DNA of 64,000 nucleotides from Alcanivoracaceae bacterium. GTDB lineage: Bacteria; Pseudomonadota; Gammaproteobacteria; Pseudomonadales; Alcanivoracaceae. Shown here piece after piece: positions 17,483 to 60,072 of this stretch. Numbering within the stretch: the first letter of the stretch is position 1; the number at the start of each line of letters is the position of its first letter. The translations under genes and the position numbers were made by a program. The notes under the pieces were generated by a model. It saw nothing but the letters and a program-made list of their open reading frames with translations, had not been told where the DNA came from and made no database searches. The stretch lies in the NCBI GenBank assembly GCA_002706085.1, contig PAJO01000034.1:28212-92211 (forward strand), read 5' to 3'.

Positions 17483-17485
17483 AAA

Positions 17486-49476: not shown

Positions 49477-50178
49477 CTACGGTGCCGTCTGTGCGCCGCG
49501 CAACCCCGCCAGAATCTCTTCTGCCCGACGGCTCTGATGATCGCCGATCCCCGCTTCCGCCATGCGCTGGTCCAGGCTATCGCCGAGACGATCCCCCTGT
49601 AACTGCGCTTCACTCTGCCACAACAGGCGACATTCTTCCTGTCGTTGCTGAATCTGCTGCAGGGTGTGCTGACTGTCGCACAATCGCTGCGCCAGACCGC
49701 GCTGGTCCTGATGACGTTGCCGGGATTCTCCAAACAGGGTTTCCTGGCTGCGCGCCATGGATTGCTCCTGGCGCAGGGCTTTCAGGGTATCTGCTGCCTG
49801 TTTGATAAACGCCTGAAACTCGGTTTTCTGTTGCTCCAGCGTCACGCCCTGCCGGGCAAGGCGGCTTTGCTGTTGCTCCAGATCCGCCAGACGCTTGCCG
49901 ATATCCAACGCCAGGACATCATTCTCTGCCGCCAGGGCCTGGCGAGCCCCCTCCTCATAATGCCGACTCTGTCTGCTCAACTCATCGGCACGACGCTGAT
50001 TCAGTTTCTCTTCCGCCATCAGCCTTGCCAATTGACGGCGCGCGTCACGCAGGGATTGCTCGGTTTCATACAGCTGCTGGTCCAGCAGCAGCATGTCATT
50101 GGCGTTGACGATCTGTTCCATGCTGATACGGGCCTGGCCTCGCATCAGGGTTTTCAGTTTGGTCCATGCTGTTGCCAT
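49477..50178 (-). CDS. PspA/IM30 family protein
   Basis: The 233-residue protein is almost wholly coiled coil, with the PspA/IM30 start (WTKLKTLMRGQARISMEQIVNANDMLLLDQQLYETEQSLRDARRQLARLMAEE). PspA proteins coat and stabilise damaged inner membrane. The pspF regulator and pspBC genes are not nearby; a YiaA/B membrane protein is next in the same direction, as seen in other proteobacteria. GGAGAAC precedes the ATG. Confidence 0.85.
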   Translation of the reverse strand: MATAWTKLKTLMRGQARISMEQIVNANDMLLLDQQLYETEQSLRDARRQLARLMAEEKLNQRRADELSRQSRHYEEGARQALAAENDVLALDIGKRLADLEQQQSRLARQGVTLEQQKTEFQAFIKQAADTLKALRQEQSMARSQETLFGESRQRHQDQRGLAQRLCDSQHTLQQIQQRQEECRLLWQSEAQLQGDRLGDSLDQRMAEAGIGDHQSRRAEEILAGLRGAQTAP

Positions 50179-50197
50179 GGTGTTCTCCTTATTGAAT

Positions 50198-50285
50198 GGT
50201 CTGACGTCGGAAGTCGGACGTCTGACGCTAAACAGGCTTTGTCTTTATCTTTTGTCGTCCGACGTCCGACCTCAGACATCCGACC
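50198..50285. repeat. Heptad-armed inverted repeat, GTCKGAN type
   Basis: Left arm 50198-50226 and right arm 50254-50285 are inverted copies. On one strand both read as 7-mers: GTCTGAC, GTCGGAA, GTCGGAC, GTCTGAC on the left, and GTCGGAT, GTCTGAG, GTCGGAC, GTCGGAC on the complement of the right. The loop is only about 27 bp. The unit differs from CAAGCTN but the 7-bp period is the same. Confidence 0.85.
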
Positions 50286-50289
50286 GTCT

Positions 50290-50562
50290 CTAATCCGTAT
50301 ATTCCTTCAACAATCTTTCCGTCTTCGCCTCACTGATCCGGTTGATCAGACGCCGGGCCTCATGGTCATCGCGCAGGGTCTTGGCAAGGGTGATGGTGGA
50401 GCCGACCACAAACATGATGCCCATCACCAGGTAGCCCTTGATCCACAGGTCAGTGGGTAACCAGACGATGCCCAGCACCATCAACCCCAGGCTGATCCCG
50501 AATGCCGCCTTGACGTAGAACAGCCAGCCCCCGGAGTGTCGTTGAATCGCACTTTCATCCAT
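50290..50562 (-). CDS. YiaA/YiaB two-helix membrane protein
   Basis: The 90-residue protein has two membrane helices (FYVKAAFGISLGLMVLGIVWLP and KGYLVMGIMFVVGSTITLAKTLRD) matching the YiaA/YiaB domain, with the conserved final KTxRD motif, then a charged tail. The function is not known. It lies upstream of pspA in the same direction and is separated from it by the GTCKGAN inverted repeat. Confidence 0.85.
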   Translation of the reverse strand: MDESAIQRHSGGWLFYVKAAFGISLGLMVLGIVWLPTDLWIKGYLVMGIMFVVGSTITLAKTLRDDHEARRLINRISEAKTERLLKEYTD

Positions 50563-50641
50563 GGTGAAACCCTCTTGTTTAACGGTGTTTAATTAAAATG
50601 CCAAACAACTAAACACCGTTCAACAACAAGGATGTTACCGG

Positions 50642-51274
50642 CTATGTCGAGGGGTGTTCAGGGGGCGAACCTGGCCGGCGGCCAATGGGCCGGGCAGGGT
50701 TGCCCGCCACGATGGTCCAGGGGGGAACATCCTTGGTAACCACGGCCCCCATCCCCACCACGGCGTGATCTCCGAGGGTCACCCCGTCCACGATCCCGAC
50801 CCGGGCGCCCACCCAGACATCCTTGCCAATGTGGATCCCCTTTGACGTGACCGGCTGCTCGCGCACCGGACGGTCTGCATGCACACCGTGGTTGAAGGCA
50901 TAAAAGGTACAGTAAGCGGCGATACGGGAGCCGTCGCCGATATGCACCCCGGAGGCCCCCCCTTCCAGAGTCACATGGTGGTTCAGACTGACATTTCGGC
51001 CCAGGCGTACCGGGCCGTGAATGACGCAACCTGCGGCGATCTGGCTGCCATCACCGACGATAATGTCGCGACCTGGCTCGGCCAGCAGCACCGCCTGCGG
51101 CGCCACAAAACAGTCCGTTCCAAAAGTCACCGTTTCCAGCGCCATCCAGCGTTGCTGAAGGGCCTGCTGCCACGGCTCGGCCCAGGCGCGATGCTTCGGT
51201 TTCAACCGGGCATACAGCCAGGGCATATAGGCGAGGCGTTGCTTGTGTTGTTCGCGGTAATCGTCTTCGGTCAT
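50642..51274 (-). CDS. Hexapeptide-repeat acyltransferase
   Basis: The 210-residue protein has left-handed beta-helix hexapeptide repeats (IIVGDGSQIAAGCVIHGPVRLGRNVSLNHHVTLEGG, HIGKDVWVGARVGIVDGVTLGDHAVVGMGAVVTKDVPPWTIVAGNPARPIG), typical of CoA-dependent acetyltransferases of the LacA/NodL group. The acceptor is unknown, perhaps a sugar in the envelope. ATG 51274 gives MTEDDYREQHKQRL; the longer frame reads through a repeat arm. A heptad-armed repeat begins 10 bases upstream of the start. Confidence 0.85.
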   Translation of the reverse strand: MTEDDYREQHKQRLAYMPWLYARLKPKHRAWAEPWQQALQQRWMALETVTFGTDCFVAPQAVLLAEPGRDIIVGDGSQIAAGCVIHGPVRLGRNVSLNHHVTLEGGASGVHIGDGSRIAAYCTFYAFNHGVHADRPVREQPVTSKGIHIGKDVWVGARVGIVDGVTLGDHAVVGMGAVVTKDVPPWTIVAGNPARPIGRRPGSPPEHPST

Positions 51275-51283
51275 AAGGCAGGG

Positions 51284-51435
51284 GCAAGCTTCAAGCTGCA
51301 AGCTGCAAGGCGCGGTCATGCTTATTGAGCCTTGAAAGGCTGTGCCCGCGCAACATTAATTCCATGAATCGCGGCGCAGATCCAATCGATTACAACTCGC
51401 CTGATCCGCGTTGTAGCTTGTAGCTTGCAGCTTGC
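51284..51435. repeat. Heptad-armed inverted repeat, CAAGCTN family (copy 5)
   Basis: Left arm 51284-51314 reads CAAGCTT, CAAGCTG, CAAGCTG, CAAGGCG; right arm 51407-51435 is its complement with three 7-mers and CAACGCG. The loop carries CGCGGCGCAGATCC at 51370-51383. Unlike other copies it lies between two divergent genes. Confidence 0.8.
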
Positions 51436-51503
51436 TCCTGAAAGAAGTGTTTAGCCGCGCGGACGGGTGCAGTAGCATGTCCGCCAAAACAAAGGAGACT
51501 CCC

Positions 51504-52220
51504 TTGAAGACACGACTTTCACTTGTCCCCCTGTTGCTTGTCCTGGCTCTGACCGGGTGTCAGCACATGGAAGCGGTCATGCCCTGGGTCAACGCAGGCA
51601 ACCAGATGGCCAAGGACGCCGGTTACGATACCGAGTCGCGGCTGGTCTCCGGCATCAAGGAAGCCCTGATCAAGGGCACCGATACCGCTGCTGCCCAGCT
51701 GTCCCGCGAAGGGGCCATGAACCTGCAACTGCCGGACGCTGCCCAGCCGGTGGCCAACACCCTGCGCCAGTTTGGCTTGGGCCGTTATGTAGACCAGCTC
51801 GAAACCGCCATGAACCGGGGGGCAGAAAAGGCCGTCGCGGCGGGCGCCCCGGTCTTCAAAAATGCCATCAATTCCATGAGCGTGGATGATGCCCTGGGCA
51901 TTATTCAGGGCGGGGACACCGCAGCCACCACCTATTTCCGCGGGGAGACGGAAGCAAGCCTGCGCCAGCGTTTTGAACCCATTGTGGAAGACAACCTGCG
52001 CAAGACCGGGTTCTATGATCAATACCAGACATTACTGGCGGCCTACGATAAGTTACCACTTACCAACAAGCCGAACCTGGACCTGGAAAAGTACGTTATC
52101 GACACCAGCATGGACCAGCTCTACACCCGCATCGGCGAGCAGGAAACCCAGATCCGCCAGAACCCCTTCCAGCAGGGCAGTGCCCTGATCGGCGCGGTGT
52201 TCGGTGAACAGGCAGAATAA
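51504..52220 (+). CDS. DUF4197 lipoprotein
   Basis: The 238-residue protein has a lipoprotein signal (TRLSLVPLLLVLALTGCQHM) and a DUF4197 domain with SGIKEALIKGTDTAAAQLSREGAMNLQLPDA, NRGAEKAVAAGAPVFKNAINSMSVDDALGIIQGGDTAATTYFRGET and YVIDTSMDQLYTRIGEQE. The function is unknown. The TTG at 51504 is preceded by AAAGGAG at six bases, which decides the start over the ATG at 51477. The gene stands alone between two repeats. Confidence 0.85.
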   Translation: MKTRLSLVPLLLVLALTGCQHMEAVMPWVNAGNQMAKDAGYDTESRLVSGIKEALIKGTDTAAAQLSREGAMNLQLPDAAQPVANTLRQFGLGRYVDQLETAMNRGAEKAVAAGAPVFKNAINSMSVDDALGIIQGGDTAATTYFRGETEASLRQRFEPIVEDNLRKTGFYDQYQTLLAAYDKLPLTNKPNLDLEKYVIDTSMDQLYTRIGEQETQIRQNPFQQGSALIGAVFGEQAE

Positions 52221-52224
52221 GTCG

Positions 52225-57827: not shown

Positions 57828-57867
57828 GACGCAACACGCTGCACGCATCAAGCAACACGCAAAACCG

Positions 57868-57893
57868 GGCCGCAGTCACTGCGGCCTTTGTTT
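57868..57893 (+). terminator. Rho-independent terminator of glyQS
   Basis: GGCCGCAG (57868-57875) and CTGCGGCC (57879-57886) form an 8-bp stem with a TCA loop, followed by TTTGTTT, 41 bases after the glyS stop. Confidence 0.8.
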
Positions 57894-57910
57894 ATACACC
57901 CAACACTGCT

Positions 57911-58061
57911 GTAAGAGCGTCGCTGGCGGCGCGATCACAACGTCGTGAGTGACGAAAACGAGTTTCGAAAGATAAAACCCGCAGACCATTCGGTTTCAAG
58001 GTTTTAGAAACTCGTTACCCGTCCCAGGCCAAGGTGATCGCGCCGCCAGCGACGCTCCTAC
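57911..58061. repeat. GTAGGAGCGTCGC-type inverted repeat, copy A
   Basis: Arms 57911-57938 and 58034-58061 are 28-bp inverted copies with one mismatch (GTAAGAGC in place of GTAGGAGC). Reading the minus strand, the loop shares long matches with the loop of copy B at 60179: GATCACCTTGGCC, then GTAACGAGT, AAAACCTT and CTTTCGAAACTCG. Copies A and B are in opposite orientation. Confidence 0.85.
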
Positions 58062-58083
58062 AACTAAGGCACAGGGTTTATTC

Positions 58084-59354: not shown

Positions 59355-59715
59355 GGCAGGGCGTTTATTCGGGAAACGTGGGCGGCTAGCAGAACCGGTT
59401 GCCTCGCTTGGGCTCGGTTCGTTATGCGAGTGTTTTGTATAGGCTCTGGAATCCTTACCTCGTTTAGACTCGGATCGCCATGCGAGCATGGCTCCTACAA
59501 AGTGCTCGGGTTATTTATTGGCGCCGAACTCAACGATCTGAAAGGCGTTTCCGTTCTTCTAAAAAACCTGGGAACTATTTTGGGTTTGCCTTTCCAATCA
59601 AGTGTAGCTTGTAGCTGACATCTCACATCTATTTTAACCAAACCCTTATTGCCAACCCTGCTTAAAATAATTAGAGTCGTCGCGCAGTTAAATGACAAAT
59701 CACAAGGGCATAATA
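59355..59715. other. 361-bp intergenic region with repeat remnants before the H-NS-like gene
   Basis: The left half holds diverged repeat remnants: GGCTCGGTTCGTTATGCGAG (59410-59429) and a GCCATGCGAGCATGGCTCCTAC unit at about 59477-59498, single-armed relatives of the element at 1043. The right half is AT-rich (59600-59700) and probably contains the promoter of the H-NS-like gene, with TTGCCA at 59649 and TAAAAT at 59663, at unsuitable spacing for a confident call. TGTAGCTTGTAGCT (59602-59615) is a trace of the CAAGCTN family. Confidence 0.5.
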
Positions 59716-60072
59716 ATGACCATCAATCTTGATGAACTTTCCATCGACGAACTGGAAAAACTGATCAAGCAGGCGGAAGCCGCTCTGGATAAAAAGCGTA
59801 AGGCTGAGCTGAAAAATGCCCAGGCGGTACTGGAGAAGATGGCCAAGGAACTGGGCGTAGATCCTTCTGAACTGCTGAAGGCCAACGACAAGAAAAAGAC
59901 CCCTCGCAAGAAAACGGCTGGCAAGAAAAAAGCAGGGGTACGCAAACCTGCTGCAGTGAAATTCCGCGACCCGAACAACAGCAGCAACACCTGGACTGGA
60001 CGCGGTAAACGTCCGCTGTGGTTGCAGGATGCGCTGGCCAAAGGCGCCAAGCTGGAAGATTTTGCGGTGTAA
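59716..60072 (+). CDS. H-NS-family histone-like protein
   Basis: The 118-residue protein has an N-terminal coiled-coil oligomerisation region (DELSIDELEKLIKQAEAALDKKRKAELKNAQAVLEKMAKELGVDPSELLKA), a Lys-rich linker (KKKTPRKKTAGKKKAG) and a C-terminal DNA-binding motif (KFRDPNNSSNTWTGRGKRPLWLQDALAKGAKLEDFAV) in the TWTGRGxxP form of H-NS. It probably silences AT-rich DNA. ATG 59716 was chosen over 59692 because the spaced AAGGG at 59704 fits it. A terminator follows. Confidence 0.9.
   Translation: MTINLDELSIDELEKLIKQAEAALDKKRKAELKNAQAVLEKMAKELGVDPSELLKANDKKKTPRKKTAGKKKAGVRKPAAVKFRDPNNSSNTWTGRGKRPLWLQDALAKGAKLEDFAV

Follow-up and report, generated by a model that had tools for sequence, protein, structure and literature searches.

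Intergenic hairpin elements with arms of four 7-nt units in Alcanivorax: a shared architecture built from several interchangeable words

The 111 bp between two minus-strand genes, yiaAB upstream (50290–50562; PF05360, E = 1.1e-18) and a pspA-like gene downstream (49477–50178; PF04012, E = 1.6e-17), are mostly occupied by an inverted repeat at 50198–50285. Positions are those of the window, the whole 64,000-nt stretch analysed here; its own genome, an Alcanivorax, is G000, and other G numbers denote compared genomes. The left arm (50199–50226, plus strand) reads GTCTGAC, GTCGGAA, GTCGGAC and GTCTGAC, while the right arm (50257–50284), read on the minus strand, gives GTCGGAT, GTCTGAG, GTCGGAC and GTCGGAC. 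All eight units fit GTCKGAN without a mismatch, which confirms the preliminary description of an inverted repeat with four such heptads per arm, and one extra G/C pair carries the arms out to 50198 and 50285. The loop separating the two arrays (50227–50256, assigned to no strand) is short, as had been described, and measures 30 nt rather than about 27. Scanning the window with the four-unit pattern at up to three mismatches gave three matches, against 0.00 expected from 100 dinucleotide-preserving shuffles: the two arms, each with no mismatch, and one shifted right-arm match with three. The repeat lies 4 nt from the stop codon of yiaAB, and an AAGGAG ahead of the pspA-like gene follows 7 nt past its end. 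On the other side of yiaAB, the gap to a hexapeptide-repeat gene holds a palindrome of the TTTAACGGTGTT..AACACCGTTCAA type (50570–50625), which looks like an operator and recurs, by eye, in the 13 genomes read.

If co-transcribed with its neighbours, the repeat would form a hairpin on the minus strand. The gap (50179–50289), taken as RNA in the direction of the genes, folds with -47 kcal/mol (z = -5.19); of the four K positions in the stem, three form 1x1 mismatches. As single-stranded DNA it folds with -24.4 kcal/mol (z = -4.28). An intrinsic terminator was rejected for most copies of the element, since a T-run of at least four follows the hairpin in only two of 20 folds (17 elements). At the window element, terminator prediction made no minus-strand call and one weak plus-strand call (50220–50237), antisense to the genes. 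Rfam gave no match in the window at the gathering score, and a sub-threshold mir-6301 match over the hairpin (22.4 versus 70 bits) was taken as chance. A G-quadruplex was likewise rejected for GTCKGAN, whose consensus unit has no G-tract and at most two consecutive Gs.

The element belongs to a sizeable family. The genome-wide count that had been suggested as a check gave 144 matches to three GTCKGAN units in the window's own genome (up to two mismatches) versus one for the reversed control pattern, distributed, among the matches listed, over at least 41 places (counted by eye). A second word, CAAGCTN, gave 140 matches in the same genome (three units, up to one mismatch; long arrays are counted repeatedly) versus none for its control. 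For the architecture of the family we used 456,708 bp of the own genome, comprising the window and 20 stretches picked around GTCKGAN sites. The 48 GTCKGAN arrays therein form 18 pairs and 12 singles, and all 18 pairs are convergent. Four units make up 27 of the 36 paired arms, three units eight and five units one, a preference for four among arrays of at least three units, the range collected. The innermost unit of an arm is mostly followed by GC. With a looser finder and congeners included, 45 of 48 pairs were convergent and three otherwise. By eye, the window element and that at L160:9687–9758 have the loop end TTTATCTTTTGTC in common, plus the right arm; some copies at least share an ancestry that extends beyond the arms.

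Nearly all copies are intergenic, with 29 of 30 GTCKGAN elements in the 457 kb of the own genome outside any called gene, and 33 of 36 when array midpoints are scored under a looser array definition; upstream of the elements at L159:10014 and 10930 the reading frame, as read from the sequence, seems to stop within the heptads. The 18 paired elements lie between 14 same-strand, two convergent and two divergent gene pairs, as judged by a small in-house hexamer-score caller whose stops are firm and whose starts are approximate. Of the same-strand pairs of the own genome, 12 could be scored, and in all 12 the element is closer to the stop of the upstream gene; two of the 14 (L159:10014 and L163:9840) were omitted because the upstream gene is poorly called. 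When congeners are added and orthologues included, the figure is 33 of 37 (medians 6 and 53 nt). What emerges is a family of dispersed, non-coding, hairpin-forming elements with a variable loop, intergenic and close behind a stop codon.

Such placement behind stops, together with the strength of all 20 folds (-37 to -91 kcal/mol), points to RNA structure as one explanation: a long hairpin behind the stop would protect the upstream mRNA or tune the downstream gene with no protein reader, and tandem heptads would be a cheap way to remain complementary in several registers. Against this, four of the 18 pairs sit between divergent or convergent genes, and the identical word is maintained across unlinked elements. 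The units themselves allow a closer look. Among 51 units that lie between two good units in the own-genome sample, the constant positions were kept in 51 (G1), 47 (T2), 50 (C3), 51 (G5) and 51 (A6) cases, a constancy that is overestimated because the arrays were found via the word, while K4 was G in 30, T in 15, A in five and C in one, and N7 was C in 30, A in nine, G in eight and T in four. No covariation of K or N between paired arms was seen by permutation: the arms agreed in 26 of 72 K cells (permutation mean 30.9) and in 44 of 72 N cells (mean 43.2), in a comparison where good units number only three in eight of the 36 arms. Pairing alone, then, does not determine which sites are kept, nor does it demand that K be almost always G or T. 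Such a pattern is more readily reconciled with recognition of the unit than with plain selection for a perfect stem. Within the limits of array finding, the arms retain their GTC-GA positions, and drift affects the loop, K and N. At L156:16796, G000 and the congener G015 have arms that differ at many sites, constant positions among them.

Other observations lean the opposite way. Transitions on the transcribed strand were wobble-compatible in 32 cases and not in 20, a count, orthologues included, that would suit RNA structure without deciding for it, and changes of word hit both arms together. In six elements from G008, G012 and G007, some of them probably orthologous, position 2 has gone from T to C in every unit of both arms, and these elements supply 24 of the 28 cells where both arms deviate from the consensus. 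We regard RNA structure without a reader as a doubtful explanation.

The period of seven extends well beyond GTCKGAN. A scan of the 456,708 bp, with one random shuffle per period, returned 99 period-7 arrays over threshold versus two in the shuffle. The multiples of seven gave 58 arrays (14) and 23 (21), and no remaining period between 4 and 24 exceeded 16. The outcome named beforehand as telling against the idea, that similar repeats would have arms of random period, was thus not found. Most of these period-7 arrays consist of words other than GTCKGAN, though 20 of the 21 stretches had been picked around it. GTCKGA follows GTCKGA at 7 nt (84 times), 14 nt (51) or 21 nt (18), and at none of the distances 3–6, 8–13, 15 or 16 nt in the same sequence. 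Besides GTCKGAN, the 457 kb hold 11 heptad classes (defined by eye), and in genus sequence seven classes other than GTCKGAN occur as same-class inverted pairs. The 999,960 bp of genus sequence contain 254 period-7 arrays with 66 neighbouring pairs within 250 bp, so that roughly half stand without a partner over threshold. Fifty of the 66 are same-class pairs, and all 50 show the orientation typical of their class: 47 are '+-', and the three that are '-+' all belong to the GCGTG class. Of the other 16, ten join arrays of two, mostly similar, classes; the remaining six include an unclassified array.

The preliminary description had held that three unrelated words share period and inverted arrangement, and had taken this to mean that the period itself matters. 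Several words with a common period and inversion are indeed present, and they number more than three. Their unrelatedness holds only in part, for intermediates link GTCKGAN with GCCKGAN, and CAAGCTN with CAAGTTN and AAAGTTN. That the period itself matters finds partial support: it outlasts the word, but slippage by heptads occurs, and an inverted class of period 9 in congeners means that the arm period is not always 7.

Several other repeats share this sequence space. The period-9 class (CACAGAGNN-like, by eye) lies between REP-like copies, in the gaps of G002 and G005 that match window 57828–58083 and 51275–51533, respectively. REP-like GTAGGAGC or GTGGGAGC copies stand in facing pairs at window 57930–58060, L169:7590–8000 and L041:1140–1320; one such pair surrounds a CGAGTTN inverted repeat and another sits within a GTCKGAN loop. 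CAAGCTN and AAAGTTN elements (window 51285–51435 and similar) have an inner CGCG in common, and a core of ~95 nt with CCGCGCC..GGCGCGG. About 14 copies of a hexamer, AAACCC, run through L159:18203–18289 up to the end of G000 contig C21. Ahead of the gene at 59716, arrays of GTAGCTT/GTAGCTC (window 59355–59715) are long and pure in G008, G012 and G002, short in G000 and absent in G015.

For the yiaAB–pspA gap, 14 genomes including the own one were read. The gap is masked in G010 and has no element in G006; G015 has a remnant and G002 a similar GTCKGAN pair, short palindromic forms stand in G013 and G005, and in G008, G012, G014, G009, G004, G003 and G001 the forms are GCCKGAN-like, mixed or decayed (all forms by eye). 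Occupancy of this site is not stable. Between G000 and G015, for all 12 GTCKGAN sites of five stretches (flank identity 82 to 99.7%), eight elements are kept, two are remnants and two are absent. Where a site is occupied, the word can differ. Between these two genomes CGAGCTN faces AAAGTTN at 17483, as CAAGCTN faces AAAGTTN at 51275, in both cases with neighbouring genes 97–99% identical. At 51274–51500, 13 genomes show, by eye, CAAGCTN (three), AAAGTTN (four), a CAAGTTN-like word (one), a mixed form (one), and REP-like and other sequence (four); the same reading covered the gaps at 52220 and 53089 in part. Period and inversion outlast the word in the sense that an orthologous site can bear different words.

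The words also vary by species. Counts of four-unit GCCKGAN and three-unit GTCKGAN matches, whose unit numbers differ and which long pure arrays inflate, were 0/43 in G000, 0/90 in G005, 0/35 in G006, 0/23 in G009, 0/15 in G010, 0/12 in G011, 0/9 in G015 and 0/0 in G016; 1/3 in G001, 1/2 in G003, 2/45 in G013 and 6/59 in G002; and 148/42 in G008, 117/4 in G012, 41/25 in G007, 20/1 in G004 and 14/0 in G014. The balance between the two words thus differs strongly by species and is not exclusive, G008 and G007 holding both. Further afield, 18 of 57 genomes have three exact GTCKGAN units; counting the own, 15 belong to the same genus and three to two other genera of the family. Contigs of Alcanivorax hongdengensis A-11-3 contain the repeat, and one of them is 100% identical over 8000 of 8000 bases to G005, a genome of the window's own genus. 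A four-unit scan of public genomes yielded at least 117 stretches with GTCKGAN and 123 arrays in them. Only 14 of the 123 are paired with an inverted array no more than 450 bp away among the matches listed (11 of these convergent), and 73 of the 109 partnerless arrays repeat a single unit, i.e. are plain heptamer microsatellites. The GTCKGAN word is widespread, while in this public sample the hairpin form is exceptional outside Alcanivorax.

These microsatellites bear on a mutational explanation, by which polymerase slippage together with template switching at palindromes would yield period 7 with no reader, the arrays being tolerated because they are intergenic. Differences of exactly one heptad separate G000 from G015 at 52221, L163:8544 and L158:1185, and at L156:9624–9669, close to a gene, lies a candidate variable-number locus, an (AACAGTG)n array that is six units (42 nt) longer in G015. 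Congeners carry long pure arrays, and in the flanks of the at least 117 public stretches, a biased sample, period 7 leads with 177 arrays versus at most 48 (periods 5 to 12). Slippage is also the explanation quoted in PMC4692102, so far as its excerpts go. Whole-heptad indels and single-unit microsatellites imply that slippage alone can produce heptads, which counts against a reader factor. It would, however, duplicate whole units, yet successive units differ at K and N and agree elsewhere; nor are the arms copies of each other at K and N, and four units in 27 of 36 arms and convergence in all 18 pairs speak against it as well. On balance a purely mutational origin seems to us unlikely. Period 7 may be set by a protein, by a structure or by slippage of the polymerase.

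Dispersal and turnover raise a further alternative, a selfish non-autonomous element akin to MITEs or REPINs whose heptads would be transposase binding sites with no host function. The copies are dispersed, the GTCKGAN element has the terminal inverted repeats by which MITEs are recognized, some copies share loop sequence, and the 8:2:2 division of kept, remnant and absent sites between G000 and G015 is a presence/absence pattern in close relatives. One of the absent sites, however, has flanks of 98–99.7% identity and shows a block replacement without target duplication; none of the 12 sites was cleanly empty and marked by a target duplication, and mobility stays hypothetical. L159, the one place inspected for this, showed neither an autonomous partner nor a larger gene-carrying unit bounded by GTCKGAN arrays, the gene between its arrays being an ordinary one, and the GTAG tag of REP elements is absent. 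We consider this origin improbable. Apart from these elements, a 306-bp repeat at L156:3481–3786 with inverted ends of ~34 bp looks like a MITE; G015 has over 20 copies of it, complete or partial.

The reading that we favour, tentatively and as possible rather than probable, is one of dispersed hairpin elements read by a postulated trans-acting factor with a 7-nt step. Such a nucleic-acid-binding factor would move along the array in steps of 7 bp or nt and read the constant positions of the unit. The elements would have spread through copying, and copying combined with reading would give each species a uniform word while allowing that word to change, like a dialect, from one species to the next. 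Where transcribed, as presumably between yiaAB and pspA, the hairpin would serve the mRNA as a structure between cistrons or at the 3' end, not as an intrinsic terminator, and may affect mRNA ends or operon balance. A bolder version, to which we give little credence, would have a conserved grammar, with interchangeable heptad-armed hairpins throughout the genus, each word having its own co-evolving protein of 7-bp step, so that dialects shift while sites and geometry stay.

Among known systems, REP palindromes, the targets of RAYT transposases, are likewise dispersed and intergenic (PMC3733652, in part). The present elements differ from them in their heptad arms and in lacking a GTAG tag, which is absent from either end of the window element as read from its sequence; a CGTC there lies inside the heptads and is no separate tag, and separate REP-like GTAGGAGC copies exist in the same genomes. 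The TAACTGA heptamers of marine Beggiatoaceae, as excerpted from PMC4679880, are also intergenic, with two to six units at many places per genome, but are direct repeats (with one indirect set) mostly just before start codons. For a protein with a 7-bp step the best precedent that we found is ParB/Omega of plasmid pSM19035, which requires four contiguous heptads for full activity. Its parS resembles the GTCKGAN arrays in having at least four contiguous 7-bp units and accepts several orientations; it differs in its unit, WATCACW, and in serving as plasmid centromere and promoter sites (PMC9499535, in part). The resemblance is one of analogy, and nothing places the element in such a system; a search for Omega_Repress found none in 17 genomes, yet also none in 14 control genomes, and hence says nothing.

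The closest counterparts are the heptameric intergenic repeats GGGAATC/(GGGANTN)n of Xanthomonas, reported along with GGGGA(C/T)T of Nostoc (PMC4692102, excerpts of which underlie this comparison). Heptamer excess in bacterial intergenic DNA is on record there and is put down to polymerase slippage, whereas the preference for four units is tied to G-quadruplexes, and a function of the four-unit convergent form is still sought. For GGGANTN, 186 and 183 patterns, mostly of four units, were reported; convergent pairs accounted for 70 and 75 cases, 89 and 93% of the patterns were intergenic, and the mean distance was 28 nt to the 5' neighbour and 160 nt to the downstream ORF. GTCKGAN has every tested feature of these repeats except the G-tracts: exact 7-nt tandem units variable at fixed positions, a majority of four-unit arrays, convergent close pairs, a mostly intergenic position nearer the 5' gene, and mostly the same gene pairs in related species with variable sequence. 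Our search of literature titles recognized no paper dedicated to GTCKGAN or CAAGCTN arrays, and one may nonetheless exist. GTCKGAN differs from the Xanthomonas repeats in having no run of three Gs, so that a quadruplex is not possible, and Alcanivorax in having several words per genome and a switch of word at an orthologous site. Here the same four-unit convergent form is built from words incapable of quadruplexes and exchanged at orthologous sites; if these forms are one phenomenon, quadruplexes are excluded as their common cause. Since word and spacing can be varied independently, function and slippage are cleanly separable. Judged by the excerpts of the Xanthomonas report, the kind of element is already known, and what sets Alcanivorax apart is that several interchangeable words serve it within one genus.
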